Positions 1,754 to 20,662 of a DNA stretch of 20,850 nt are shown here, in pieces. Every line of letters begins with the position of its first letter. The stretch's first letter is position 1. The notes under the pieces are model-generated. The model was not told the DNA's origin. It ran no database searches and saw only the letters and a program-made list of their open reading frames with translations. The DNA is taken from the IMG/VR virus record IMGVR_UViG_3300020467_000071, positions 1 through 20,850 of that record; one strand, written 5' to 3'. Made by a program: the position numbers and the translations under genes. This stretch comes from a virus.

Positions 1754-1786
1754 ATCTATTATAACATAGATTAGAAACCAGCAGCA
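1754..1786 (-). promoter_or_regulatory. Possible sigma-70-like promoter for the glutaredoxin gene
   Basis: The minus strand carries a perfect -10 TATAAT at 1763-1758 and a poor -35 (TTGCTG, 18-base spacer) in the end of the tail-fibre gene. The -10 lies in the loop and arm of a 6-bp inverted repeat ATCTAT/ATAGAT (1754-1759 with 1766-1771), which could instead act as a weak end signal for the upstream late transcript. Confidence 0.35.
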
Positions 1787-3222
1787 AAAAATCCTGATAA
1801 ACTAACCTGACCTGCTCTAGAAGTTATTAAATCATCAACACCCTTTGTTGTACTTACATATGAAGTATTAACACCAGCAACACCAGGATAAGTATATGAA
1901 TTAGATTGTGTAATACCAAACCCTAAAACCTGATCATTATCAAGCACAACTACATCATTAATCTTATAATCCCCTCCTGTAGCTACATTTATTCCAGTAT
2001 TAAAGTCCCATTTATCAGTAAACTGATCCCATTGTATAGTTTTATCAAATCCACCTGGACCCATAACTTTAATACCACCACCATCAGCAGTAGCATTAGT
2101 AGGTCCGTTATGTTGGAAAGATACATTACTTTCTGATCCCGTACCACCAAGGGGATTCATCAAATTGACTTCATCATTAATAATAGAAGTAATAGTGTTA
2201 ATACCAGATGTAAATACAACAGTACCAGGTGTTGGTATTGTAAGTACTATTCCTGGAACAAGATTAGAGGTATCACTAACATCTTTTATCTTATCTTGTC
2301 CAGCAATAAGAGTACCACTAAAGGAACCACTAGTAAAATATCCAAGTTCTATATTATTATCTTTAACTCTAATCCTATTAGAAAATAAATTAGTACTTTC
2401 TCCTTTTACAGTAATCTCACTTTGACTAGTAAGATTTCCAGTAAGATTCAATGCTCCATCTAATTTAGTATCACCCAAAACATGTAACTTAGTTCCTGCT
2501 GTTATACCTACACCAAGATTACCAGTTACTCTCGCATTCCCTAAGACATACCTATCATCACTATCAAGAAGTCCACTTACAGCATAAAATAATTGTCCAT
2601 GACAGACAAAACTAACCATTGAATTTCTATTAGAGAATCCAATAATAGTTTGTCCTTCTTTTAATTTTATATCTGTTCTAGTATATGTCTGTCCTGGTTC
2701 AATTCTCTTACTATATTCAACATATTCAGTACTATCAAAATCACCTAGTGCTCCGTTAGAAATACCTATTGTAGCAACAGCTGCCTCAACACCCATGTTA
2801 CATACACTAAGAGTTGTATTAACCTGTGACCCTGAAGGAGCAGTGAATATAGATTTCTTTTGCTTATCATTAGATATAATATGACTAAGAACACCAGACC
2901 TTACTGGATGTAATGCATCACTGATAGTTTGACCGTAAAATAAAAAATTAATATCAGTCTGATCAGTTCTAGCTACTAATTTTTGTCCAGCACCTAAATG
3001 TATATCCTGAGTTTCATATGTCTGACCGTACTTAACCGTCTTATTATATTCAAAATACCTTAATGATGATCCATCCTCATACCCAAGTTGAATACGAGCA
3101 GGAGTAGAATTCTTACTTGATATAGATACCTTACCAACAGTAAGTTGGTCACTGCCTCCCATATATAATGTGCCAGGTTGGCCAACTGGTGGTATAATAC
3201 TATTTAATAGTCCAAAAGCCAT
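1771..3222 (-). CDS. Tail-fibre-like virion structural protein
   Basis: A protein of 483 residues. About residues 20-100 and 130-220 hold two copies of one beta-rich domain, each with an aromatic YFEYNKTV/YVEYSKRI strand, a YGQTYETQDI/PGQTYTRTDI turn, an L-x-x-GQ segment and a final FYGQ/CHGQ strand. A fibre-like part follows (GNARVTGNLGVGITAGTKLHVLGD), then beta-rich segments and a C-terminus ending in SGFFAAGF. The layout fits a trimeric receptor-binding fibre or baseplate decoration of a T4-like marine phage. The first domain type also forms the whole of the 106-residue protein at 13309-13629. A late promoter (GATAAATA) lies upstream, consistent with a structural gene. The exact virion location is unknown. 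Confidence 0.75.
   Translation of the reverse strand: MAFGLLNSIIPPVGQPGTLYMGGSDQLTVGKVSISSKNSTPARIQLGYEDGSSLRYFEYNKTVKYGQTYETQDIHLGAGQKLVARTDQTDINFLFYGQTISDALHPVRSGVLSHIISNDKQKKSIFTAPSGSQVNTTLSVCNMGVEAAVATIGISNGALGDFDSTEYVEYSKRIEPGQTYTRTDIKLKEGQTIIGFSNRNSMVSFVCHGQLFYAVSGLLDSDDRYVLGNARVTGNLGVGITAGTKLHVLGDTKLDGALNLTGNLTSQSEITVKGESTNLFSNRIRVKDNNIELGYFTSGSFSGTLIAGQDKIKDVSDTSNLVPGIVLTIPTPGTVVFTSGINTITSIINDEVNLMNPLGGTGSESNVSFQHNGPTNATADGGGIKVMGPGGFDKTIQWDQFTDKWDFNTGINVATGGDYKINDVVVLDNDQVLGFGITQSNSYTYPGVAGVNTSYVSTTKGVDDLITSRAGQVSLSGFFAAGF
3193..3198 (+). promoter_or_regulatory. Possible extended -10 promoter for the epimerase gene
   Basis: The plus strand reads TGG followed by TATAAT, an extended -10 element, about 55 bases upstream of the epimerase ATG and inside the first codons of the divergent fibre gene. 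No good -35 is visible, which is usual for extended -10 promoters. It would give host-polymerase (early) transcription of the two plus-strand genes. Confidence 0.4.
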
Positions 3223-6705: not shown

Positions 6706-7099
6706 TAATCTTTTTGATGATATTACTGCTGGCATATCCACCAACTCTTGGAAGGTGTCTTACTTCCATAGCATGTTCCCATCCAACTACATCACCATCT
6801 CTCCAATCATCACCAAGTAATAATATATCAGGTTGGTATAGTTCAATTAGATCTTCTAACTCTTGTCTACTACCAAAGGTATGGACAACATCAATATACT
6901 TGATTGCCTCAAGCATAGCAACCCTAAAACTAAGATCGTTTATAGGGCGATGCTCTCCTTTGTCAGTACGAATCTTCTCATCAGTATCCGTAGCAACTAT
7001 TACTTTGTTTCCTAGAGATCTAGCAACCTTGAATAGTTCTATGTGTCCTGGATGAAGAATATCAAATGTGCCATTGCACCATACTATATTATTTTCCAA
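6683..7099 (-). CDS. hldC: Heptose-1-phosphate adenylyltransferase-like (HldE C-terminal half)
   Basis: A protein of 138 residues, a cytidylyltransferase-like Rossmann fold. It has NGTFDILHPGHIE with the HxGH nucleotide-binding motif, then EHRPINDLSFR, LLLGDDWRDGDVVGWE, and a GGYASSNIIKKI C-terminal motif matching the ST-x-x-I-x-KI signature. These fit the HldE/RfaE2 domain that turns heptose 1-phosphate into ADP-heptose. A glycerol-3-phosphate cytidylyltransferase is the main alternative, but the neighbouring kinase and epimerase favour heptose. The only possible start is a TTG at 7099, since an in-frame stop lies at 7109-7111 and no ATG or GTG comes before the motifs. It overlaps the carbamoyltransferase gene by 11 bases, so re-initiation after that stop is likely. 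Confidence 0.83.
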   Translation of the reverse strand: MENNIVWCNGTFDILHPGHIELFKVARSLGNKVIVATDTDEKIRTDKGEHRPINDLSFRVAMLEAIKYIDVVHTFGSRQELEDLIELYQPDILLLGDDWRDGDVVGWEHAMEVRHLPRVGGYASSNIIKKINESIVTG

Positions 7100-8867
7100 T
7101 AGTCTTTGCTATACTCTTTCCTTGATTTGCATTTGTGTCTATTGTAACTAGTTTCTGTATCTCAGGCAAATACATATGATTAATACCACTAGATGCTAAT
7201 GTAGCATAAGCATCTTCTATAGTTTCAACTAAAGGATATCCACCAAGATTGAAAGAAGTATTAAACAATATAGGAACACCACTTAACTTTTCAAAAGCAT
7301 CTATAAGTTTATAGTAATGTTTATTTTCATCTTCAGTAAGAGTTTGAATCCTACATGTACCATCAACATGAATAACTGATGGGATCTTTTCCTCAACACC
7401 AGGTAAACAATCAACAGCATACATCATATGTGGTGTTTCATCTCTACCTTGAAGATCAAACCATTCATGTACATTTTCTCTTTTAATTGTACAAGCAAAT
7501 GGTCTAAAGAATTCTCTCTGCTTTATCTTATTAACAATATCTTTACCATCCTTAATAGTAGGATCAAAAAGTATTGAACGATTACCAAGTGCTCTTGGTC
7601 CTGCCTCAGATTTACCTTGAAAAATTGTTACAATCTCACCACTACGAATCAACTTAGCAACATCACCATAAGAAGTATCAGTAACTTCATAATCTTTTAC
7701 AAAATCAAAATCTAAATAACGCTCAGGATAATATTGAGGACCATAATAAAGAGATGTTCTCTTAGGATATGGTTTTTCTGATTTAACTATCTGTTCATTC
7801 AACCAAATAGCACCACCTATAGATGTTCCTCCATCATGCGATACAGGTTCAACATAAATGTTTAAATCTGGAAACTCTTTCCAATACTTATAATTAGCAA
7901 CACAATTCAATCCATATCCACCAGAGATACAAATATTTGTTTCTCCTGTTAACTCATGTGCTTTACGTATTAAAGCAATTAAACCCTCCTCAGTTGCTTT
8001 TTGAACTGAATATGCTAAATCCTTTTGAATTTGAGTGTATGCTTTATCCTCTTTATCACCAAATTTTTTATATCTCTCTTTATTTTTATTAATTTCTACA
8101 ACATCTTCCTGCAGAATAGGAAATCTATCAATGTTAACAGCAGATTGATTTGGATAATCTGGAATAAATAAATCCCTACTTACCCATCCATCTCTAGTAA
8201 TAGGTGGTAGATCTGGATTCTCTTTACCATATGGAGATAACCCCATAGTTTTTCCAGCATCAATAGATTGAAATCCACAGTACTCTGTTATTGCTTCGTA
8301 TGCTTTAACATAACCTGGATATTCAGTTAAGGTAATTGGCAAGTCTGGATCTAACTTCTTAACACCAATGGATTTATCAGTACCCATATGCTTATAGGCA
8401 ACATCAAATTTCAATGGCCATTTTGCTTTAAATATAGTTTCAAATTCATAAATTACAGAATCAACAGCATCAGTTTGTAAAAAACTTCCAGCACCATCAG
8501 CAACTACTACAGCAGCAGTATCAAATCCAGAATTTTTAAAAGCACATGTAGCATGCATCTCATGATGTTTATCCGCTACCTTATGAGTTTTAAAGTCAAA
8601 CCTTCCTTTAGCCAATTTCCTTAAATACCCAGTGTATAGATCTTCACCAGTCCAATCTAACTCAGGTCCATATTCATGAGTATGGCATATTACTAAATGA
8701 TCTACATGATCAACAAAGTTAAACACATACATCAAACCCATTAAAGGTGATCCATCATATTTACGTCTAGAAAGTCGTTCTTCTTCTATGTAAAATACAA
8801 TCTCACCATCAACCATTAAAGTTGTGCTCGCATTATGTCCACGAGCAATAGAAACAATAACACTCAT
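7089..8867 (-). CDS. O-carbamoyltransferase, NodU/TobZ/CmcH family
   Basis: A protein of 592 residues, the full family length. The N-terminal Kae1-like domain has ARGHNAS (9-14), EEERLSRRKYDG (about 28-39), KHHEMHATCAF with the metal-binding His pair (about 100-110), VVVADGAGSF, and SGGYGLNCVANYKYW (about 315-330). The C-terminal YrdC-like domain has KSEAGPRALGNRSILFDP (about 415-435), REFFRPFACTI, and LFNTSFNLGG near the end. Family members use carbamoyl phosphate and ATP to make carbamoyl-AMP and then carbamoylate a hydroxyl, often on a sugar. In this operon a heptose or heptose-containing glycan is the obvious candidate substrate; Pseudomonas aeruginosa LPS core is known to contain 7-O-carbamoyl heptose. 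It follows the glycosyltransferase gene by three bases. Confidence 0.92.
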   Translation of the reverse strand: MSVIVSIARGHNASTTLMVDGEIVFYIEEERLSRRKYDGSPLMGLMYVFNFVDHVDHLVICHTHEYGPELDWTGEDLYTGYLRKLAKGRFDFKTHKVADKHHEMHATCAFKNSGFDTAAVVVADGAGSFLQTDAVDSVIYEFETIFKAKWPLKFDVAYKHMGTDKSIGVKKLDPDLPITLTEYPGYVKAYEAITEYCGFQSIDAGKTMGLSPYGKENPDLPPITRDGWVSRDLFIPDYPNQSAVNIDRFPILQEDVVEINKNKERYKKFGDKEDKAYTQIQKDLAYSVQKATEEGLIALIRKAHELTGETNICISGGYGLNCVANYKYWKEFPDLNIYVEPVSHDGGTSIGGAIWLNEQIVKSEKPYPKRTSLYYGPQYYPERYLDFDFVKDYEVTDTSYGDVAKLIRSGEIVTIFQGKSEAGPRALGNRSILFDPTIKDGKDIVNKIKQREFFRPFACTIKRENVHEWFDLQGRDETPHMMYAVDCLPGVEEKIPSVIHVDGTCRIQTLTEDENKHYYKLIDAFEKLSGVPILFNTSFNLGGYPLVETIEDAYATLASSGINHMYLPEIQKLVTIDTNANQGKSIAKTIGK

Positions 8868-8870
8868 TAC

Positions 8871-10010
8871 TTATACCTTTTTAGCTTCAATGTCCAATAA
8901 CTTATCTATGGGTTTCTTTTTATCTGATTTTGGTTTCTGAAATCCATTATACTTTACAGTAGATTTAGGAGTAGATAAAATCTTTTTAGGATAACTACCA
9001 CCCTTTACATCATTACAAACAGAACTACTATTAGAAGGAGATAATTTCTTTGGTGGAATTGCAGTGGGAGATTTAGAATCAGTAACTTTCTTACTTACAC
9101 CAATCTTATCTTTAATTGATTTTACGATTTCCTTAACTCTAGATGAATCAAGTACCATTAAATCTTCATTGTTTCTATCAGTATAAATGTCATGTGTCAA
9201 TCTAATAGGACTATATCTTCTTCTACCCTCACCATTATCAATAATAGTAAAGTTCTTATTATCAGGATAAGAAATATTTTGAGGATAAGTAGACCCAATA
9301 ACAACTGTAGCAGGTTTGCCAACAGAATTTGCCATGTGTTGTCCTACACTATCACAACCTAAGAAATAATCGGCAGCATTAATAACACCAATCCATTTAT
9401 TCAAATCAACACCTTTAGGATGAGCAATTCCTTGCTCTTGCCATCCAGGAATCTCAATCTCAGACATTAATATTATACCATAATCATCTCGTAATTCCTC
9501 AATTAATTGTTGGACATTTGTAACCTCAAAACTTCTACCTGTATTATCATATATAAATCTACCTTCCATCTTAGAACTTTGTCCAAAAGGTTGTAGTACT
9601 ATAACCTTTTCCTTTTGTAAGGTTTGTCTTACTTCATCTACAAGATTATATCCTGTTATCTGTTCTTCTTTACTTAAATCAAGATTAATTTTACCACTAT
9701 CTCTTACATCATCCAATCCATTGATTTCAATATCGAATGCTTGAATTAAATTACATTTTTGATTAAAATATTGATTTACTCTATAGGGTTCTGGAGATAT
9801 AATCTTTCTATCTTTTAGCTGATTCTCAAATAAATCTTTATTCATAGGGAAATATACCTTATCCCTAAGTTTTTTATTACAAAGATACAATTCTCCCCAA
9901 GACTCAGCAACGATGACAAAATTGTCATCTGTTTCTGCATACCTTTCTAATGCTGGCATGGAACAGAGCACACGCCCTGATCCACCATTAATGAAAAATG
10001 CTTTATTCAT
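8871..10010 (-). CDS. GT9-like (heptosyltransferase superfamily) glycosyltransferase with basic tail
   Basis: A protein of 379 residues. The N-terminus NGGSGRVLCSMPALERYA resembles the glycine-rich loop of GT-B enzymes of family 9. The donor-site region WIGVINAADYFLGCDSVGQHMANSVGKPATVVIGST (about 205-240) matches the GT9 pattern of 'ADLFIGNDSGPMHLA' followed by 'GTP', with conserved Asp/Ser and His. GT9 members include the ADP-heptose:LPS heptosyltransferases, so with the ADP-heptose genes downstream it may transfer heptose. The degree of divergence leaves the substrate open. About 75 C-terminal residues are rich in Lys, Ser and Pro and look disordered. It is the first gene after a strong early-type promoter and heads the seven-gene sugar operon. 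Confidence 0.75.
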   Translation of the reverse strand: MNKAFFINGGSGRVLCSMPALERYAETDDNFVIVAESWGELYLCNKKLRDKVYFPMNKDLFENQLKDRKIISPEPYRVNQYFNQKCNLIQAFDIEINGLDDVRDSGKINLDLSKEEQITGYNLVDEVRQTLQKEKVIVLQPFGQSSKMEGRFIYDNTGRSFEVTNVQQLIEELRDDYGIILMSEIEIPGWQEQGIAHPKGVDLNKWIGVINAADYFLGCDSVGQHMANSVGKPATVVIGSTYPQNISYPDNKNFTIIDNGEGRRRYSPIRLTHDIYTDRNNEDLMVLDSSRVKEIVKSIKDKIGVSKKVTDSKSPTAIPPKKLSPSNSSSVCNDVKGGSYPKKILSTPKSTVKYNGFQKPKSDKKKPIDKLLDIEAKKV

Positions 10011-10100: not shown

Positions 10101-11177
10101 TTACTGATACTGAACGCAAACCATTCCGAGTCTACCTTGGTCTCCACAGTGACTAACACACCCACCCATTGCGTGAGACATCCAACCACCTGCTCCAGGG
10201 TACTGTAAATATCCATTCTGTGCTCTCCATCCACCACCACAACAGGTATTAGATGTAAAGTCTTGTATACACATTGTTCCTGTTTCAAATCCATAAACTG
10301 GAGCAGCATGGAAACATCCATAGGTGTTATCATGAATACACCATTTATTCCAGATTCCTCTTAGACCATAAATTACGTTCTCTGCAGTTGGACATGCGAT
10401 AGCAGTCGTACCATAGTATCCAGCACCTGCCACATAATCAAAGAATCCACCAGTTTGTCCACTATTACGGCACATAGAACCACCATAATGACAAGTACGG
10501 AAATCCATATTGTTTCCAGGATTGTTAAGGCATGGTGCGTAACATGGGTTTTGTTTACCCAATCTCATACCATGATACATTCCATGTCCACCATCACCAC
10601 CTTCAGCACAAACATAACATAATCCTGGTCCTGTAACGTATGAAGGACATCCTCTTAATCTTTGAGCACCTGACCATGATTCTGCCCAACAACAATAAGC
10701 ACATCCACTACAAATACTATAACTATTACCTTGTGTTACAGGTATAATAACTGAAAGATAAGCACCAGTAGATCCGAATAAAGTATATCCACAACATCTA
10801 CCTGGATGATTTGCTCCTCCACCAGCACCCCACATTTGGAATCTTGCTTTGGTTACACCACTAGGAACAGTCCAAGTACAACTTCTACCACAACGATAAT
10901 ATCCAGTATCATCACAAACTTTAAATCCACTAGTCCACCCACCAGGATCATATATTTTAGTCCATTTAGTGGTATCAGCAGGGCATATTTGTAAATACCT
11001 TTCTACAGAGGTTGATCCAACTAACCATTCCTTAGCAAAAGATTCAGCGTTACCGCCACCGCCACCACCAACATCAGCAGCGTTTGCTTTGAGATCAAAT
11101 AATTCTTTTCGTTTTTCAGCTACTTGTTTCTTTAAGTGAGCTTGCTCATTCAGAGCACTATAAACTAATACATCCAT
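10101..11177 (-). CDS. Cysteine-rich tail-fibre-like protein (paralog 2)
   Basis: A protein of 358 residues with 26 Cys (about 7 percent). Layout: a short DVLVYSAL start, a charged coiled-coil-like stretch (about 9-35), a Gly6 linker (37-42), then a Cys/Gly-rich domain. That domain has FKVCDDTGYYRCGRSCTWTVP, WGAGGG, GAYLSVIIPV, CSGCAYCC, RGCPSYVTGPGL, CAEGG and the end GRLGMVCVQYQ. It is clearly paralogous to 11939-13006, with the same order and many shared Cys. Coiled coil plus Gly linker suggests a trimeric fibre. A GGAGGG ribosome site precedes the ATG. The function is not known; the Cys could form disulfides outside the cell or bind metal. Confidence 0.75.
   Translation of the reverse strand: MDVLVYSALNEQAHLKKQVAEKRKELFDLKANAADVGGGGGGNAESFAKEWLVGSTSVERYLQICPADTTKWTKIYDPGGWTSGFKVCDDTGYYRCGRSCTWTVPSGVTKARFQMWGAGGGANHPGRCCGYTLFGSTGAYLSVIIPVTQGNSYSICSGCAYCCWAESWSGAQRLRGCPSYVTGPGLCYVCAEGGDGGHGMYHGMRLGKQNPCYAPCLNNPGNNMDFRTCHYGGSMCRNSGQTGGFFDYVAGAGYYGTTAIACPTAENVIYGLRGIWNKWCIHDNTYGCFHAAPVYGFETGTMCIQDFTSNTCCGGGWRAQNGYLQYPGAGGWMSHAMGGCVSHCGDQGRLGMVCVQYQ
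10621..10655 (-). repeat. Repeat A, copy in cysteine-rich paralog 2
   Basis: A 35-base segment identical except for one base to 12474-12508. It encodes the RGCPSY(V/I)TGPGL region of the cysteine-rich proteins. Confidence 0.85.
10864..10929 (-). repeat. Repeat B, copy in cysteine-rich paralog 2
   Basis: A 66-base segment with three differences from 12711-12776. It encodes the FKVCDDTGY and RCGRSC region of the cysteine-rich proteins. The identity includes third codon positions. Confidence 0.85.
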
Positions 11178-11183
11178 GTGCTA

Positions 11184-11900
11184 TCAACCCTCCGCAGTTG
11201 TGCCTGGGAAATTCAACTTACCTGAACCACCTAAAGCATAGTTAATAGGCATAGGCAAATTCTTAAATGCTGTCATTATCTCAACAGGAATTTTAGGAAT
11301 GGCAGGTGGAGTTGGTAATGTAGTATACTTCCAAGTTTCATACTTTGGATTATCATTCATATATGAAGTAATTCCTACGAGATATGCATCTATTTTGGCA
11401 TTAAGATCTGTCCCGAAATCAAATTGCGACTTATAGGTTTCTACATAATCCTTTCTACCTCTTGCTTCATCCCAAGCATCATTTCTTAAAGGTTTAAGAA
11501 GTTGATCAATTTTCCATGTACCAGTTTGAGCATCCCATCTTGGGGTATCATAAGCATCATCCAAATCTGGATTAGTTTGCTTCTTATACACTTCACCGTT
11601 AGATAAAGTTTCATCCTCATACTCATCAACCCAATTAAAGTCATCTTCATAAGCATGATTGACTGCCAAATAAGCAACGGGTAATTCTGAAGATGAATTA
11701 GCGTTTATAGTTTTCTTCCTTTCTGGGGATAAATCAGGATCTGTTGGATTAACCATAATGATCCTACCTTGTCCATCAATTTCAACTGTAAAGGTATCTG
11801 GTCCAACATAGGTATATGTCCCAATACCAACAGTTGAAATACCAGCCACATACAATTCAGTTGGAAGTGCGTAAGTAAATGTTTGCTGAATTTGAGCCAT
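11184..11900 (-). CDS. Possible tail-fibre assembly chaperone or fibre-associated protein
   Basis: A protein of 238 residues. The N-terminal part is beta-rich (PTELYVAGISTVGIGTYTYVGPDTF, then VEIDGQGRIIMVNPTDPDL). The middle is acidic and the C-terminal half helical: LLKPLRNDAWDEARGRKDYV, then a helix ending in NDNPKYETWKYTTLPTPPAIPKIP. A basic helix, a short alpha segment and a closing W-x-x-x-LPTPP resemble the C-terminal signature of Tfa/tail-assembly-chaperone proteins, which often end with EWPTPP. This is a resemblance by eye, not a confirmed match. Lying between two paralogous fibre genes fits a chaperone, since such genes usually neighbour their fibre. A late promoter precedes it. Alternatively it is a virion protein of unknown role. 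Confidence 0.55.
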   Translation of the reverse strand: MAQIQQTFTYALPTELYVAGISTVGIGTYTYVGPDTFTVEIDGQGRIIMVNPTDPDLSPERKKTINANSSSELPVAYLAVNHAYEDDFNWVDEYEDETLSNGEVYKKQTNPDLDDAYDTPRWDAQTGTWKIDQLLKPLRNDAWDEARGRKDYVETYKSQFDFGTDLNAKIDAYLVGITSYMNDNPKYETWKYTTLPTPPAIPKIPVEIMTAFKNLPMPINYALGGSGKLNFPGTTAEG

Positions 11901-11922
11901 CTTTAATGAACCTTATTTTAGT

Positions 11923-11930
11923 TATTTATA
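11923..11930 (-). promoter_or_regulatory. T4-type late promoter TATAAATA
   Basis: An exact TATAAATA on the minus strand, 23 bases before the ATG at 11900, in a 38-base gap after the upstream cysteine-rich gene. It should drive the chaperone-like gene and the second cysteine-rich fibre gene. Confidence 0.75.
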
Positions 11931-11938
11931 AGTATAAT

Positions 11939-13006
11939 TTAATTGTATGATATACAAACCATACCAAACCTACCTGAGTCACCACAGGTACAGTCACCAC
12001 CACAGGAAGATGTCATCCATCCACCAACACCAGGAACTTGTCTAACACCTGCAGGCCAAGCACTTTGGCAATGACCACCACAGTTATTACAGATATAACA
12101 TCCACCTCTACCACAACAAGCAGTATCATAACCATAAACTGTAGCAGACCATCCTCTCATAGGATATGACCAATCAGCATGAGCAGAACTATTTTGTCCC
12201 CTAATCTTCCAAACTTCACCGCCAGAAGCAGATCCATAAGCTAGTACAGTACATGATAACCAAGGCATAATACCATCATTATATCCATCGGGATATCCAA
12301 ATCCAGGAGTCTCAAAGTCAGCAGAACAAGTTGTTGCACCTGATCTACAGATACATCCATTATGCCATACACAGCAACAAGCATTACACTTAACTGGAAA
12401 ATATAAATCATTCCTATCACAAATTGTTTTGTAGATACAAGAACTCCAACCACCTTCAGCACATAAATTAGTTAATCCTGGTCCTGTAATGTATGAAGGA
12501 CATCCTCTACTTTGATTATATCCATCACCTTGAGAGTAGCAGCAATAAGCACATCCACCACACATTTGGTAAGTACTACCAGCAGTTACTGGCATAATTA
12601 CTGAAAGATACGCACCTGTATCACCTGTAGGTGACCACATACAACATCTAGATTCCGTACTACCTCCACCAGAACCCCATAATTGGAATCTTACACAAGT
12701 TGTTCCACCAGGAACAGTCCAACTACAACTTCTACCACAACGAAAATATCCAGTATCATCGCAAACTTTAAATCCATTTGTAAAAGATACAGTGTTATCA
12801 GTATGCTTAGTTGGAATCCTACACCACTGATTTGCTTGAAGCATTGAAGAATGCTCTACAACTTCAATAGCATCAGAATTAGCAGAACCTCCACCGCCAC
12901 CGCCACTTTGGGCAGTAGCAATATCTTCTGTTAATTGGGTAATCTCAGCTTTTAATTCTTGATTTACCTCTTGTAACGCATTATAGGTTAATACATCGAT
13001 TGCCAT
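11939..13006 (-). CDS. Cysteine-rich tail-fibre-like protein (paralog 1)
   Basis: A protein of 355 residues with 33 Cys (about 9 percent), extreme for a phage structural protein. Layout as in its paralog at 10101-11177: MAIDVLTYNAL, a coiled-coil-like stretch (about 12-33), a Gly6 linker (35-40), then FKVCDDTGYFRCGRSCSWTVP, WGSGGG, GAYLSVIMPV, CGGCAYCC, RGCPSYITGPGL, a CNACCC cluster, further Cys pairs, and the ending GRFGMVCISYN. It shares a TAATG stop/start overlap with the gene upstream, so they are co-translated. It is probably a virion fibre or adhesin, with Cys for disulfides or metal; neither is shown. Confidence 0.75.
   Translation of the reverse strand: MAIDVLTYNALQEVNQELKAEITQLTEDIATAQSGGGGGGSANSDAIEVVEHSSMLQANQWCRIPTKHTDNTVSFTNGFKVCDDTGYFRCGRSCSWTVPGGTTCVRFQLWGSGGGSTESRCCMWSPTGDTGAYLSVIMPVTAGSTYQMCGGCAYCCYSQGDGYNQSRGCPSYITGPGLTNLCAEGGWSSCIYKTICDRNDLYFPVKCNACCCVWHNGCICRSGATTCSADFETPGFGYPDGYNDGIMPWLSCTVLAYGSASGGEVWKIRGQNSSAHADWSYPMRGWSATVYGYDTACCGRGGCYICNNCGGHCQSAWPAGVRQVPGVGGWMTSSCGGDCTCGDSGRFGMVCISYN
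12474..12508 (-). repeat. Repeat A, copy in cysteine-rich paralog 1
   Basis: A 35-base segment differing by one base from 10621-10655. Confidence 0.85.
12711..12776 (-). repeat. Repeat B, copy in cysteine-rich paralog 1
   Basis: A 66-base segment with three differences from 10864-10929; the flanking sequence is much more diverged. Confidence 0.85.
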
Positions 13007-13296
13007 TAGCTTAGATCCTCCTCAACATTAGTTACAAGATTGGTATTTGAATCATATGTAAGTTTCCACTTTTTAGAAACACCACCAATGTTCTCAGTGA
13101 ACCCAGTAATAAGACCAACAGTAGATGCTTGAGCATCATATTGTATCGCAGAATAAGCAGTATCGCCAAGAGTTACAGCAGTAACATTATTATTACTATC
13201 TGTAGTAATACCCGATGCTCTACTAAAAGGTTCAGTAGGACCTAATCCTCCTCCACCTTTTCCTTTATTAATAATTAAACCTACATATCTACCCAT
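13006..13296 (-). CDS. Small structural-cluster protein, unknown
   Basis: A protein of 96 residues. The N-terminus MGRYVGLIINKGKGGGGLGP has a short Gly-rich linker like other fibre proteins here. The remainder is Thr/Asn/Val rich and looks beta-rich (SNNNVTAVTLGDTAYSAIQYD, then KKWKLTYDSNTNLVTNVEED). No family is recognised. It lies between the 106-residue beta-domain protein and the cysteine-rich fibre gene, which it meets in a TAATG overlap. A small virion or fibre-linker protein is plausible. A CGAGGT ribosome site lies seven bases before the ATG. Confidence 0.6.
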   Translation of the reverse strand: MGRYVGLIINKGKGGGGLGPTEPFSRASGITTDSNNNVTAVTLGDTAYSAIQYDAQASTVGLITGFTENIGGVSKKWKLTYDSNTNLVTNVEEDLS

Positions 13297-13308: not shown

Positions 13309-13629
13309 TTATACTGCTTGTTCAAGGCCATAAACACTAACACTAGTATCAGCAGTTGAGACGTATACTACAACTTGTTTACCAGCTTGAAGTGCTATAC
13401 CAGTTCTCTCTACAACTCCTTTAGCAGGAACTGTAACATCATACTCAACCCACTCCGCAGTTGATGGAGTAGCACTTGCTGCTAACGCAATTCTCACATC
13501 AACAGGGTTAGATCCTGAACGATTAAGAACGTTTATATTAACAACAGAAAGAGTTGACGCAGGAACTGTATAAACAGAAGTATCAGTACTAGCAGAAGGG
13601 GAAGCTTGCCCCAATATTCCAGATGCCAT
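13309..13629 (-). CDS. Single beta-domain structural protein
   Basis: A protein of 106 residues that corresponds to one copy of the domain found twice in the fibre protein at 1771-3222. It has VNINVLNRSGSNPVDVRIALA, then EWVEYDVTVPAKGVVERTGI, LQAGKQVVVYVS and a closing VSVYGLE, matching the strand order and the EYVEYSKRI...PGQTYTRTDI...L-x-x-GQ pattern there. It is likely a small virion decoration or fibre-connector protein. A late promoter lies 25 bases upstream and it is the first gene of that transcript. Confidence 0.7.
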   Translation of the reverse strand: MASGILGQASPSASTDTSVYTVPASTLSVVNINVLNRSGSNPVDVRIALAASATPSTAEWVEYDVTVPAKGVVERTGIALQAGKQVVVYVSTADTSVSVYGLEQAV

Positions 13630-13673: not shown

Positions 13674-16600
13674 TTAACTGTTTCCAGCCATGAAGAATGT
13701 GTTAACGTCTGAGTGGTACTTAGCAGTAGCAATTCCAGCATTAGCACGGCTCACTGCGTCTGCTAATGCTCCAGTTGTTTGTACACCAACATATGTTCTA
13801 ACTGCTGCCTGAGTTGGAACCTTACTATTACTATTCTGTGATAGTGTTCCATCAGTTGAGAATTCATCAATTGAAGCACCTAACTGAGCACCAATTGAAC
13901 CCAATCTCAATGAAGTTAGACCAGATAGATCGAACGCACTAGCATTCAATGTTGCGGAACCAGTTGCCTGGTTAACACGGAAGTACTTACCAACCCTGAA
14001 GTTACCATCTTGGTCAGTTGAAACATAAAATACACGTCCAGGGAATCCTTCAGTAATTTCTTGTGATTGAACAGCATCTACCTTTGGAACATCTGGCCAA
14101 TTAGTTGTTGATGTTCCACCAGTACCAACCTGTAAGAAGTCATGACCTGTTAGTCTTGCCTGACTGTAAAGGTAACGAACCTTCATGTTCTGTTCATCAA
14201 AACACTTAGCAGCTTTCTGTTCAACAAGTGTTAGAACAGTAATACCAGTAGTATCAGTTGATAATCCAGTTATCTTAATAAATTCATTATCAATCTTATA
14301 GAAATCATTCTCAATGAATGGAGTAGAAGTTACAACTCTTGCTTGTGTAGCAATTCCAGTAAAGTCTTTCCAAACTTCAACACTATTAATTAAATTAGTT
14401 GTTGCTCCGATTGAAGTAATCTTATCACCAATATTATATGCTACAGCAGAACCAGCACCATCTTGTGCCCTTGCTACCACCATCTGTGTTGCTGAGTTAA
14501 TGCTTTGAACTTTCATCAACTCGTAACCACTAGCAGCAGGTCCTAAAGCATACTCACCAGGAGCAAATCCAGTAATAGTATTAACGTTAATTGTAGTATC
14601 ACCAGAAGCAACTGGAGTCAAGAATGTTGCCTCACCATCTTGAACTGGATAATGTGTAAATGCCTTACTTCCACCAGTATGAGCAGCACCAGAGGTTGAC
14701 CATTGTCCCCTATCAATATCTAATGTTCCACGTCCATCAGCACCAGTCTGACTTACACCATCAACCACGAATGTAAATGGATCAGCACCAGTAATTGTAG
14801 TGTTATTATATCCACCATTACCAGATCCAGTAACAAATTCAACACTACCATTAGGTAATAGTGTAGGTGAAGTACTTAATCCAGAACAAACTAACGCAAA
14901 TCCAGACTGACCTCTATTAGCATCAGTGTTATTAATTAATGTTGCTGTAGTACCATTTGTCAAACCTGTTATAGTTTCATTCTGAACAAATCCAGTACCA
15001 ACACCAGCAGGACCAGCAGTAATCAATGAATAGAACAACTGATTTTTATTACCACCCTGAATTGAGTTGATATAACCTATTGCTTCTGATGTTCCACCTC
15101 TAATTCTTTCACCAACAGCAAAGTCATAAGGGTCACTACCATCGCCACCAACTACTTTAGTATCTTTATCAAATTCTACAATCAATCCTTCAATTTGACC
15201 TGCTCTATGCTTCTCTTGCTGGTTGAATCCAGAACTTACAATACCATAATTACCCCATGAACTGTTTCCAGCAAGAGATCTTATTCTACCACCACGAGTA
15301 GCACAATAAGAAACATGACAATAGTAAGTAAAGGATGAAACTAATTCAGAAGCACCATTATTAGTAACCCAGAATGCTACACCATCATCATGTATCTGAG
15401 TGAAGGAGTCCATAACAATTGATTTGTTAGATGGAGTAGGACCATCATCAGCAAACTGTCTATGAACATTACCATCTACAATTGCTCCAATACCGCCAAC
15501 TGATTTAGCAGAACAGTTTGAAACATATGGAGATTTAACAATAGGTGTTTCTGGGTTTAATGCCACAAACGTTCCTTTAATTGTTGCGTTATTAAGATCC
15601 TCTGGAGATGCAGTGAATGTTAATGATGTAGAAGATACAGTTTGACTCTTATCAACCTCTGCGGTAGAAGCATCAGTAACGTTAATAACTTTTGTTCCAG
15701 CAGCAACACCAACACCAGTTACAGTAGTTCCAACCAAATCAGGGAAGAACTCCGTACCTGTTATAATAGTATCACTAATGGATGCTGTTGTAGTAAGGGC
15801 AACTCCTGCCTTAACAAAACCAGTCATACCTTCCATTAGAAGGTCCTTCAACATAGTTTTGTCACTCATAAAGAACATTACTGATTCAGCATTTGATCTT
15901 TGTTCTATAGAATCGATGTTAACATCAGTTGCTCCATTCTCATAAGTATCAGATGTTGTCCACAATCCACCAGAAATTGGTCTGATATGTACTTTCTTCT
16001 CAGAATAATCAGTATACAAAATACTAGCACATTTAGTTCCAGCACCATTAAAGATAGAAGAACCATAAGAAACGTATGGTTTTGCTTTTGTAATGGAATT
16101 AGGATTAGCACTTACAAATGTATGAGCATTACTATTACTAATAGGAGTGCCTGGTGAAGAGTTAACATTGACTGTAATTGTAGTCGATGTTATAGCACTA
16201 ATTCTTAATTTTTGATCATAGGCATAATCAGCACCACTAGTTGTATTAGCACCTGCTGCTCTTGGATATTGTTTCTGAGCAGCAGATCCAGTAGCACCAC
16301 CAAAATTACAACTAAAGGTAATAGATTCTGTAGCAATGTTAATGAAGTCATTAACATTTAAGTTATGAAGTCCAATAGTTAAAGTTAAATCACCAGTTGA
16401 AGTACTATAACTAGCAAAACTAGGAGACCATGTTGATTGTGGTACAGAACTTAAACTTAAAACTTGATAATGAGCATCTCCTGCAGCAGCTACAATCTTT
16501 GATGTTCTTAAGTTGTCTCCAACAATTGAGACCTCATTCGGAACAACAATAGGTAAATTCTCTTCATAAGTACCAGCTTTTACATAAATTGTTGCTGGTC

Positions 16601-17657
16601 CAGTAACAATACCACAGGCATGTTTAAGAGTAGCAAATGATCTACTAATATTTTCTCCACTATTATTATCATTACCCTCTTCAGTTACATAGAAAACTGG
16701 GTGAGTAACACTATTATTTTCCCATCCAGGTACACCAGAAGAACTAATTGTAAGTGACTGTCCATTTGTTCCAGCTGGTAATCTTGCAGAACCAGTGGTG
16801 TAATAGACCATATCACCTTCGGTGGTCATCACATTGGTTGCTGCACCTTCCGCTACAACATCCCAAAATTCACCGATAGCATCCGTTGAAGGATCTTGGT
16901 TTGTACTACCAGCAGTAGCAACACCAATATAACTATTACTTAATCTCTTTACAACATCTCCTAGTTGATATGTTGTACTATTATTCCACGCACCTTTCCA
17001 ATTAAATCCTTTAGTAACTAAACTCCACTTAGAAGTATCTGTTGGAACAGTACCCGTGCTAGTAGAGATAGCAACATAACTATTTCCACCCCACTGTACA
17101 ACATTACCTTGGGTATAATCTGTTGCAACATCATAATATCCTACAACACTGAAACCAGTTGTTAGAATATCCCAATCCGCAGCTAGATTAAGAGATGGTA
17201 TTTTATTTGAATGCTGACTTGTAGCAACATAAGTATATCCACCATATGCTACAACGTCACCAACCTGATACTCTGTCGCAGAATCCCAAGTATCTTCATA
17301 ATTAAATGATTGTAAATATTCTTCTAAAGTAGCAGCATTTGTACTATCAAAAGTACTTGTACTAAAACCTGCTTTTACTCTATAATGTGTATTACCATAC
17401 TTAACTACATCATTAACTTTATACCAAGCACCTGATATCCAGTCACCTTTACTTGCGATACCTTCTGTATGTAAGGACCAGTTAGCAGTTATATCGCTAG
17501 AATAAAAGAGATTTTCGTCCGTTGTAGAAGTATGGTTTGCCTTACATACGTAAGTATTAGCACCATACTTAACAATGTCATCAATGACATATGCAGTTGA
17601 TACTGTCCAATTACCTCTCCAATTAAACTTTAGCCTCCCAAGTCTAAATTCAGCCAT
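13674..17657 (-). CDS. Large multidomain tail-fibre protein with five N-terminal CBM-like modules
   Basis: A protein of 1327 residues. The first 270 or so residues contain five tandem modules of about 50 residues, each with the pattern W-x(6-8)-Y-x(2)-(G/D)DVVKYG-x(3)-Y, for example RGNWTVSTAYVIDDIVKYGANTY and KGAWNNSTTYQLGDVVKR. This resembles carbohydrate-binding modules of family 5/12 (chitin-binding type), so host-surface glycan binding is likely. A right-handed beta-helix-like region follows (FYVTEEGNDNNSG, SRSFATLKHACGIV, IYVKAGTYEENLPI, EVSIVGDNLRTSKIV), then a long beta-rich shaft and a C-terminus with PTQAAVRTYVGVQ. Large proteins of this type are virion structural proteins in T4-like marine phages. 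AGGAG precedes the ATG. Confidence 0.82.
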   Translation of the reverse strand: MAEFRLGRLKFNWRGNWTVSTAYVIDDIVKYGANTYVCKANHTSTTDENLFYSSDITANWSLHTEGIASKGDWISGAWYKVNDVVKYGNTHYRVKAGFSTSTFDSTNAATLEEYLQSFNYEDTWDSATEYQVGDVVAYGGYTYVATSQHSNKIPSLNLAADWDILTTGFSVVGYYDVATDYTQGNVVQWGGNSYVAISTSTGTVPTDTSKWSLVTKGFNWKGAWNNSTTYQLGDVVKRLSNSYIGVATAGSTNQDPSTDAIGEFWDVVAEGAATNVMTTEGDMVYYTTGSARLPAGTNGQSLTISSSGVPGWENNSVTHPVFYVTEEGNDNNSGENISRSFATLKHACGIVTGPATIYVKAGTYEENLPIVVPNEVSIVGDNLRTSKIVAAAGDAHYQVLSLSSVPQSTWSPSFASYSTSTGDLTLTIGLHNLNVNDFINIATESITFSCNFGGATGSAAQKQYPRAAGANTTSGADYAYDQKLRISAITSTTITVNVNSSPGTPISNSNAHTFVSANPNSITKAKPYVSYGSSIFNGAGTKCASILYTDYSEKKVHIRPISGGLWTTSDTYENGATDVNIDSIEQRSNAESVMFFMSDKTMLKDLLMEGMTGFVKAGVALTTTASISDTIITGTEFFPDLVGTTVTGVGVAAGTKVINVTDASTAEVDKSQTVSSTSLTFTASPEDLNNATIKGTFVALNPETPIVKSPYVSNCSAKSVGGIGAIVDGNVHRQFADDGPTPSNKSIVMDSFTQIHDDGVAFWVTNNGASELVSSFTYYCHVSYCATRGGRIRSLAGNSSWGNYGIVSSGFNQQEKHRAGQIEGLIVEFDKDTKVVGGDGSDPYDFAVGERIRGGTSEAIGYINSIQGGNKNQLFYSLITAGPAGVGTGFVQNETITGLTNGTTATLINNTDANRGQSGFALVCSGLSTSPTLLPNGSVEFVTGSGNGGYNNTTITGADPFTFVVDGVSQTGADGRGTLDIDRGQWSTSGAAHTGGSKAFTHYPVQDGEATFLTPVASGDTTINVNTITGFAPGEYALGPAASGYELMKVQSINSATQMVVARAQDGAGSAVAYNIGDKITSIGATTNLINSVEVWKDFTGIATQARVVTSTPFIENDFYKIDNEFIKITGLSTDTTGITVLTLVEQKAAKCFDEQNMKVRYLYSQARLTGHDFLQVGTGGTSTTNWPDVPKVDAVQSQEITEGFPGRVFYVSTDQDGNFRVGKYFRVNQATGSATLNASAFDLSGLTSLRLGSIGAQLGASIDEFSTDGTLSQNSNSKVPTQAAVRTYVGVQTTGALADAVSRANAGIATAKYHSDVNTFFMAGNS

Positions 17658-18778: not shown

Positions 18779-20662
18779 TTAATTAAAAGGGTTATCAGTA
18801 GAAGCAACTGGAGCATCATTTTGTACCACTGTTCCACTAACACCTAAATTACCAGTTCCCCAATATGCTGTATTAAGAACTGATGAATTATGATCTAACA
18901 ATACTGTACCTGTAATCTCAGATAAAGGTTGTTCTGAAGGTGTGAAGTTATTAGTATAACGAGCAACACCTTTTAAAATACGAAGGTTAGACATATATCC
19001 ATGAATATTATAGTTAGTAACATTGGACCAATTTCCAACTCTTACAGTAGTGGTATCAGTATCATTCATACTTGTAGTATAAGTTCCTCTACTTATTCCA
19101 TTTTTAAAATAAGTAACTGAATTACTATTATTATTTTTAACAAAAGCATGATGTACCCATACACCCTGATCTAAAGCATTAACTGTTGTTGTGAATTTAA
19201 TGCTACCACTTTCGATCCATACCAATTTACCACCAGTAGAATCTGCCTGAATAGCCCAAACTTGAGATAGTAAAGGACTTGCCTCATATCCCTCAACAAA
19301 AACAGCAAATGGAACTTGAGTAGATGGTGAAGACTTAAACCAAAATTCAACAGTAAAATTACCAGTACCCATCGTAAAGTTATTAGATATTCCTGGAGTA
19401 TAATCAAAATAATCATTAGTAGTATTACCTCTAAAGAAGGTACTTTTCTTACCATCAAGTAAAGGGAATCCACCACCTATCAAATAAGGAGTTCCCCAAG
19501 CAATAGCAACTCCACCATCACCACCATCACCACCAACCTCACCAGTACCTATACTTGTATCATTACCAGTTGTAACATCTTGTCTAACAACAGTCGGTAG
19601 TTTTGTTTGCCCAAAAACAGTTTGTAACACTCCAGTCCCATCAAGTTTATATTCCAAAGTTTGTCCTGGATAATTACTAGTTCCACTTGCTGTACTGATT
19701 ACACTAAGGTATGTAAGTTTCGCATAACCAGCTTGACTAGTTCTAAAAGCAATATTACTAATTGTTATCTCTGGTCCATTATAAAGTGTGGTTCCTGATA
19801 ATGTTCCATTTGCATTTGGCCAATTCCACCATCCAGCAGCAGGACTACCACCAGAACCTAAATTATATCCAATCTCAGATTGAAAATCACCACCTATATT
19901 AACGACACTAATATTTGTTAGAGGAGGATCAAAAACTATTTTTGTATCATTACTTCCAGCACCAGGTTTTAAATCGATATAATCATTACCAGTTCCAGGA
20001 TAAAAAACATAACCTACTGGATTTAATGAACATCCACCACCTCCACCAGATAGTCCACCAGTTCCACCAACACCACTAACACCATTAACACCATTAGCAC
20101 CAGTTTGATTTGGAATTACGGAAGATCCACCACCACCATCACCTGTAGTAAGACCAACAATACTAAATTCTCCAGCACGAGGTGAAGATTTATATACTTG
20201 TCCTGTAGTACTATGTGCAGAATTTGAAGTATTTGAATTACCACCCTGAATTATTTTACCATTACCAAAATTATAAACACCAATACCACCAAAAGCAGTA
20301 TTACCAATACCACTACTTCCCCCGTAAGATGTTAAAATATATTCTCCAGTCTGTCTTCTTACATAACTATCCCCACCAGTATGAGCAATACCTGTAGAAG
20401 ATTCACCAGTTCCAGCAGTACCTACACGAATAGAAAGTACTTCTCCAGGAGATACCGAAACATTATCACTCCAAACTAATCCACCACCGCCACCACCAGC
20501 TACTCCAGTATCTCTCTGCCCTCCACCACCAGCACCAATAGCCATGATGGAAAGTTCTGTCTGACCAGGCGGAACTATAAAATTAAAATCTCCTGGAGAT
20601 TCATATGTTTCATATCCAGGTGGTACTACTCCTAGTACCATTAATGCTTGTTGTATTGCCAT
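18779..20662 (-). CDS. Glycine-rich tail-fibre protein with LamG-like C-terminal domain
   Basis: A protein of 627 residues. About residues 1-390 are glycine-rich and repeat-like (IMAIGAGGGGQRD, AGGGGGGLVWSDNVSVSPGE, TGDGGGGSS, LSGGGGGCS, ending in GEVGGDGGDGGVAIAWGTP). About 400-610 form a concanavalin A/LamG-like sandwich: FTVEFWFKSSPS, then WAIQADSTGGKLVWIE, GVWVHHAFVKNNNSNSVTYFKNG, and YMSNLRILKGVARYTNNFTPS. The LamG strands (EFW, W-HHAFV, F-NG, I-NLRI) are distinct and point to glycan or surface recognition. The start MAIQQALMVLG lies directly after the stop of another Gly-rich gene. It is a virion fibre or adhesin by inference. Confidence 0.78.
   Translation of the reverse strand: MAIQQALMVLGVVPPGYETYESPGDFNFIVPPGQTELSIMAIGAGGGGQRDTGVAGGGGGGLVWSDNVSVSPGEVLSIRVGTAGTGESSTGIAHTGGDSYVRRQTGEYILTSYGGSSGIGNTAFGGIGVYNFGNGKIIQGGNSNTSNSAHSTTGQVYKSSPRAGEFSIVGLTTGDGGGGSSVIPNQTGANGVNGVSGVGGTGGLSGGGGGCSLNPVGYVFYPGTGNDYIDLKPGAGSNDTKIVFDPPLTNISVVNIGGDFQSEIGYNLGSGGSPAAGWWNWPNANGTLSGTTLYNGPEITISNIAFRTSQAGYAKLTYLSVISTASGTSNYPGQTLEYKLDGTGVLQTVFGQTKLPTVVRQDVTTGNDTSIGTGEVGGDGGDGGVAIAWGTPYLIGGGFPLLDGKKSTFFRGNTTNDYFDYTPGISNNFTMGTGNFTVEFWFKSSPSTQVPFAVFVEGYEASPLLSQVWAIQADSTGGKLVWIESGSIKFTTTVNALDQGVWVHHAFVKNNNSNSVTYFKNGISRGTYTTSMNDTDTTTVRVGNWSNVTNYNIHGYMSNLRILKGVARYTNNFTPSEQPLSEITGTVLLDHNSSVLNTAYWGTGNLGVSGTVVQNDAPVASTDNPFN

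Follow-up and report, generated by a model that had tools for sequence, protein, structure and literature searches.

Genes of the cassette

The window, by which we mean the whole 20,850-base virus record analysed here, has the character of a P-SSM2-like T4-type cyanophage, and every gene and feature given below in window coordinates lies on its minus strand. Between positions 10101 and 13006 it carries two cysteine-rich paralogues, very probably encoding fibre-tip proteins, and, between them, a third gene that a preliminary description of this span had missed. Gene B, the upstream paralogue (11939–13006, 355 amino acids), is the orthologue of PSSM2_304 in P-SSM2, and gene A, the downstream one (10101–11177, 358 amino acids), is that of PSSM2_306; both match phrog_35878 (E-values 1.5e-81 and 1.3e-103, respectively). 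The middle gene (11184–11900, 238 amino acids, no cysteine), the orthologue of PSSM2_305, encodes a probable fibre-assembly chaperone of the phrog_9740 group. PSSM2_304, 305 and 306 are laid out in P-SSM2 as in the window, inside a long syntenic block, and PSSM2_304 and PSSM2_306 are annotated as "hypothetical".

The composition given in the preliminary description, 26 and 33 cysteines or 7–9% in two paralogous proteins, is correct: gene A has 26 (7.26%) and gene B has 33 (9.3%), and the two proteins are 39–44% identical over their length. The other window proteins checked contain 0–1.4% cysteine. Among the 222 open reading frames of at least 100 amino acids in P-SSM2 (average 1.08% cysteine, median 0.98%, 95th percentile 3.2%), PSSM2_304 and PSSM2_306, at 10.1%, occupy the first two ranks, and at the P-SSM2 average rate the binomial probabilities are ~6e-14 for gene A (26/358) and ~2e-20 for gene B (33/355). 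The excess is far beyond chance and amounts to about ten times the usual amount.

Both paralogues possess an N-terminal helix followed by six glycines, and both contain the cluster CxxCAYCC; the second cluster formerly ascribed to the pair, CNACCC, occurs in gene B only. The helix of gene B (residues 5–34, 12905–12994, assigned by DSSP on the AlphaFold2 model) is a putative coiled-coil shaft with a conserved DVLxYNAL start (low entropy over residues 1–10), a type of start that is confined in P-SSM2 to the two orthologues. The apparent Gly6 hinge spans residues 35–40 in gene B (12887–12904; low pLDDT at 37–40) and residues 37–42 in gene A (11052–11069). The remainder of gene B, residues 72–355 (11942–12793), corresponds to a TNF-like and glycine/cysteine-rich head, as delimited by a VIA-align range of 70–355 on the fibre of phage Pam3.

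Directly upstream of gene B is a small conserved gene (13006–13296, 96 amino acids) that is often part of the syntenic block, followed by a second one (13309–13629, 106 amino acids) that is tail-fibre related (phrog_11338, E-value 2.3e-7) and by a large tail-fibre protein of 1327 amino acids with CBM_5_12 modules (13674–17657; full-length match to phrog_9851, CBM_5_12 E-value 8.1e-13), both of them also conserved in synteny; the large protein is a candidate attachment partner of the tips. The 106-residue protein shares phrog_11338 with a 483-residue fibre protein at 1771–3222; both are versions of one module, with a single repeat in the shorter protein and a longer form in the other. On the other side are a GT9-like glycosyltransferase (8871–10010) and a carbamoyltransferase (7089–8867), which in almost all loci come immediately or nearly immediately after the cassette; the substrates of these enzymes might be the tips or the host surface.

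Distribution, copy number and divergence

Searching IMG/VR with a profile of ten sequences returned 67 loci, and we count the cassette in about 65 viral loci, almost all of which have two cysteine-rich genes around one nearly cysteine-free gene of ~210–290 codons. The order is the same in nearly all: large fibre gene, small genes, upstream cysteine-rich gene (CysB), middle gene, downstream cysteine-rich gene (CysA), GT9, carbamoyltransferase. Across 100 non-redundant relatives the cysteine content ranges from 6.05 to 12.26% (median 9.44%), and the unusual composition has persisted in dozens of marine and freshwater relatives. In Sf-FS3, S-SSM7 and S-CAM1, three tandem cysteine-rich genes are followed by a middle-type gene, and a more distant group of loci has the same arrangement, the first copy lying mostly outside the fetched stretch. 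The two-copy and three-copy classes are related, as indicated by a profile–profile E-value of 4.8e-20 over ~97 columns and by mutual phrog matches.

Several loci depart from the common plan. The more distant loci L108–L117, with three tandem proteins of 9–10% cysteine and a middle-type gene after them, mostly contain a second GT9-like gene; L052 encodes a third, very divergent cysteine- and glycine-rich protein on the opposite strand (8377–9417 of that locus, minus strand); L036 and L037 have two extra open reading frames (231 and 187 amino acids) between the downstream cysteine-rich gene and GT9; and in Sf-FS3 several annotated prolyl 4-hydroxylase-like 2OG-Fe(II) oxygenases surround the three cysteine-rich tips.

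Matches occurred in 11 related records (one of them 250 kb long), always exactly two per record, and P-SSM2 likewise has exactly two. In the tree, the main marine clade splits into one group of 23 upstream copies and another of 23 downstream copies (support 99), which places the duplication before the radiation of this clade and implies that both copies have been retained. Gene conversion or a recent duplication, at which equal lengths in L021 and L025 had hinted, is ruled out by the 39% identity and the old, separate clades. A single scan of genome contigs from bacteria and archaea found no relative, and a cellular origin was rejected on this basis. The gene psbA was found in two of 12 related records, so that any assignment of hosts to the more distant relatives is tentative.

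Within the block, median identity to the window is 43% for CysB, 48% for the middle gene and 53% for CysA, compared with 62–77% for the small genes, 62% for the fibre gene, 63% for GT9, 64% for CarbT, 93% for NucT and 91% for PfkB. The tips and the middle gene thus belong to the most rapidly diverging genes of the block, a pattern to be expected of parts that bind a receptor and of a partner that has to keep up with them.

Structure of the cysteine-rich proteins

An AlphaFold2 model of gene B, built with 76 relatives, reached a pLDDT of 83 and a pTM of 0.80. Its N-terminal part forms a shaft of a long helix followed by short ones (residues 5–34, 42–51 and 55–63), in agreement with the fibre-like start proposed in the preliminary description. 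When compared with known structures using VIA-align, the model matched the Pam3 fibre best (Z 13.0 over 197 residues at 3.6 Å; Z 12.9 over 186 residues at 2.8 Å), followed by the Bxb1 tail tip (Z 11.9) and the glycine-rich domains of ALK/LTK (Z 7–9), the next entries falling to 3.4. Foldseek likewise returned Pam3 (E-value 2e-5) and ALK (7e-4), and a structure search of BFVD matched a Syn9 protein named Gp38 (2.5e-5). Searching the PDB by sequence with the tip profile gave no match.

At the sequence level, several cysteine-rich relatives exceed the gathering cut-off (24.3 bits) of the Pfam family Gly_rich_2 (PF21722), among them S-CAM1 with 40.4 bits (E-value 4.3e-10), SfFS3_97 with 27.1 (5e-6) and S-SSM7 with 24.9 (2.3e-5). 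The window genes miss it, gene A scoring 13.8 bits (E-value 0.06) and gene B giving no match. Elsewhere in the window, a 627-residue protein with a single cysteine (18779–20662) has a Gly_rich_2 domain (E-value 1.6e-6), so that a cysteine-poor protein with a glycine-rich domain of this family is present too.

Pam3 gp24 combines a helical shaft with a TNF-like domain and with a glycine-rich domain whose loops are stacked and whose distal end is variable, and it was detected in the virion by mass spectrometry (PMC9608196). On the strength of the fold match and the position in a fibre operon, we are highly confident that genes A and B encode Pam3 gp24-type fibre tips, with a helical shaft, a TNF-like domain and a glycine-rich domain in which many glycine-loop positions are cysteine. 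This bears out the earlier identification as fibre proteins and, together with the fast divergence, favours the cysteine-rich head as the part that would contact the host. By analogy with Pam3 gp24, the tip is presumably a trimer.

The middle gene

Among the middle proteins, 37 of 43 match phrog_9740, a group to which the S-CAM1 middle-type equivalent also belongs (E-value 2.4e-122) and whose genes, in nearly every locus, either separate the tip genes or follow them. The Pfam domain Phage_tail_APC is recognized in two phrog_9740 members, SfFS3_100 (5.3e-11) and S-SSM7_118 (1.1e-9), and was not found in the window's own middle protein; a profile of the window's middle family built without the Sf-FS3 protein matches that protein with an E-value of 1.2e-6, over the N-terminal half only. 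The AlphaFold2 model of the middle protein (pLDDT 91.7) has an N-terminal β part and a C-terminal helical hairpin, a layout that would suit a gp25-like chaperone, but Foldseek returned nothing significant for it. Its alignment with Pam3 gp25, the fibre chaperone, covers 72 residues in the helical part (Z 4.3) and ranks below unrelated helical proteins, the best hits being the helical lids of Hsp70, which we regard as unrelated. Genomic context and this chain of homology, rather than a direct domain match, make the middle gene a probable fibre-assembly chaperone.

Arrangement and possible roles of the cysteines

In the modelled head of gene B (residue 63 onward), 20 cysteines are in coil, nine in strands and three in helices, and 40 of the 47 glycines are in coil. 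Regions 187–216, 229–255, 256–292 and 293–330, the most variable among orthologues (23–41% identity), hold 13 cysteines; regions 79–110 and 171–186 are 72% identical. Within a set of 100 proteins, core cysteines such as 94, 122, 182 and 220 are kept in 95–99%. Cys90 (codon 12737–12739) and Cys155 (codon 12542–12544) behave as a pair, both being present in 79 proteins and neither in 16, with five discordant cases. They show the strongest co-change on the tree among 4186 pairs (P = 1.8e-6, the columns used for the tree including cysteines); independent contrasts provide five comparisons, scored 3.3 for and 0 against, which is not significant. Other coupled pairs are few. Even and odd cysteine counts are equally common (49 and 51 of the 100 proteins), which means that not all cysteines can be engaged in intramolecular disulfides and that unpaired or intermolecular ones must exist.

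The preliminary description proposed either a disulfide-knitted tip or the binding of iron or zinc. Disulfide bracing of the variable loops is the reading that we prefer, by a modest degree and as an unproven one: the coupled pair speaks for it and the lack of parity bias against its extending to all cysteines, so that the idea of disulfide knitting stays plausible but weakly supported. Clusters that hold iron or zinc, either structurally or as bait for host metal uptake (the Ferrojan Horse idea), would suit the dense crowding of so many cysteines, iron-binding tail proteins have been discussed for marine phages, and the coupling of Cys90 with Cys155 would fit shared ligands too. The metal reading is nevertheless improbable, given that CxxC and CC spacings are no more frequent than in shuffled sequences, that core cysteines are replaced by His, Asp or Glu in only seven of ~143 cases, that HxH occurs in nine of 100 proteins, that no metal-site family was matched and that the Pam3 paper mentions no cysteine (PMC9608196). 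Somewhat less doubtful is the possibility that most cysteines are free and buried, standing in for Gly, Ala or Ser as small residues that pack between glycine-rich strands, with no redox or metal chemistry; it would account for the absence of a parity bias and for the residues that most often replace core cysteines (Gly, Ser, Tyr, Thr, Arg, Gln and Ala), but individual core cysteines are kept in 88–99% of proteins despite strong divergence, more than packing needs, and Cys90 and Cys155 vanish together.

Proposed function of the cassette

Taken as a whole, the data are best explained, with a probability that we put at about 0.7, by two paralogous receptor-binding tips with a chaperone between them and with loops braced by cysteine. 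Under this proposal, the products of genes B and A would be two fibre-tip proteins of a T4-like cyanomyovirus, each built of a trimerising N-terminal helix that begins with a conserved docking segment, a Gly6 hinge and a head whose TNF-like β-sandwich passes into stacked glycine-rich loops, as in Pam3 gp24, many of the loop glycines having given way to cysteine. The middle gene product would fold one or both tips and probably leave before maturation; the Pam3 chaperone gp25 was not detected in virions (PMC9608196). During intracellular assembly the cysteines would probably stay reduced; disulfides would then form once lysis has occurred and brace the long, variable loops that contact the receptor, the fold being held otherwise by backbone hydrogen bonds between glycine-rich strands. 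A glutaredoxin gene lies in the same cluster (1472–1720) and also in P-SSM2; its product could hold thiols reduced during assembly.

The sugar-modifying enzymes encoded downstream might suggest that the cysteine-rich proteins are secreted or host-acting products that use a glycine-rich fold and are not virion parts. This is very unlikely, since the closest fold is that of the Pam3 fibre, which mass spectrometry detected in the virion, the genes sit right behind fibre genes, the N-terminal helix and the probable chaperone resemble those of fibres, and the genome contigs scanned contained no match. Compatible with two receptor-binding tips, and a minority possibility in our estimation, is that the paralogues form one mixed, heteromeric tip instead of two homotrimeric ones. 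Both copies stand side by side in nearly every locus and form separate old clades, the docking start is common to both, a single chaperone would serve both, and other phages keep three tandem copies; known relatives such as Pam3 gp24, however, are homotrimers. A more speculative extension, which we hold to be rather unlikely, is that two or three co-kept paralogues and a single chaperone build one mixed adhesin with hypervariable loops that is locked by disulfides only after it leaves the reducing cell, so that maturation of this receptor-binding part would be timed by redox state.

Implications and comparison with known systems

Our literature search on cysteine-rich cyanophage fibres found no description of this class in the titles and abstracts listed, and a search by locus tag gave no match; the virion proteome of S-SM1 has been analysed (Sullivan et al. 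2010), and none for P-SSM2 was found in the literature. Little is understood of how P-SSM2-type cyanophages recognize their hosts, and the likely tips and a probable chaperone can now be named among their hypothetical genes. The results suggest that cysteine can serve to brace the tips with which a phage binds its host; two or three such tips are retained jointly, and ~10% cysteine can persist in a phage adhesin fold over large divergence. If the cysteines are oxidised after lysis, this would be a rare phage receptor-binding part with a redox-dependent final form, testable on an existing phage–host pair.

The closest known system is Pam3 gp24/gp25 (PDB 7YPX, 7YFW), which shares the head fold, the long-then-short N-terminal helices, the glycine-loop tip and the adjacent chaperone gene. 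Unlike the proteins described here, Pam3 has a glycine-rich domain with 39% glycine and no cysteine mentioned (PMC9608196); it has one fibre gene where two or three are present here, and the middle gene is larger than gp25 (238 versus 162 amino acids) with a weak fold match. PSSM2_304/305/306 of P-SSM2 (phrog_35878 and relatives) and the genes of S-SSM7, S-CAM1 and Sf-FS3 (phrog_4205) are orthologues or paralogues with 8–12% cysteine in the same genomic place, annotated only as hypothetical, the last three phages differing in having three tandem tips and then the chaperone gene. With respect to Gly_rich_2, several cysteine-rich relatives qualify as members, whereas in the window's genes A and B cysteine replaces much of the glycine. 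Gp38 of T-even phages and S16 is likewise a tip adhesin with stacked glycine-rich motifs, and the Pam3 authors compare gp24 with it; however, gp38 has a β-helix body, sits on gp37 and is absent among the PDB matches listed for gene B. The TNF-like/glycine-rich domain of ALK/LTK has the same head fold, but belongs to an animal receptor kinase and implies no common function. The glycine-rich fibre-tip fold is known; what is unusual here is a cysteine-packed version of it that is kept across related viruses.
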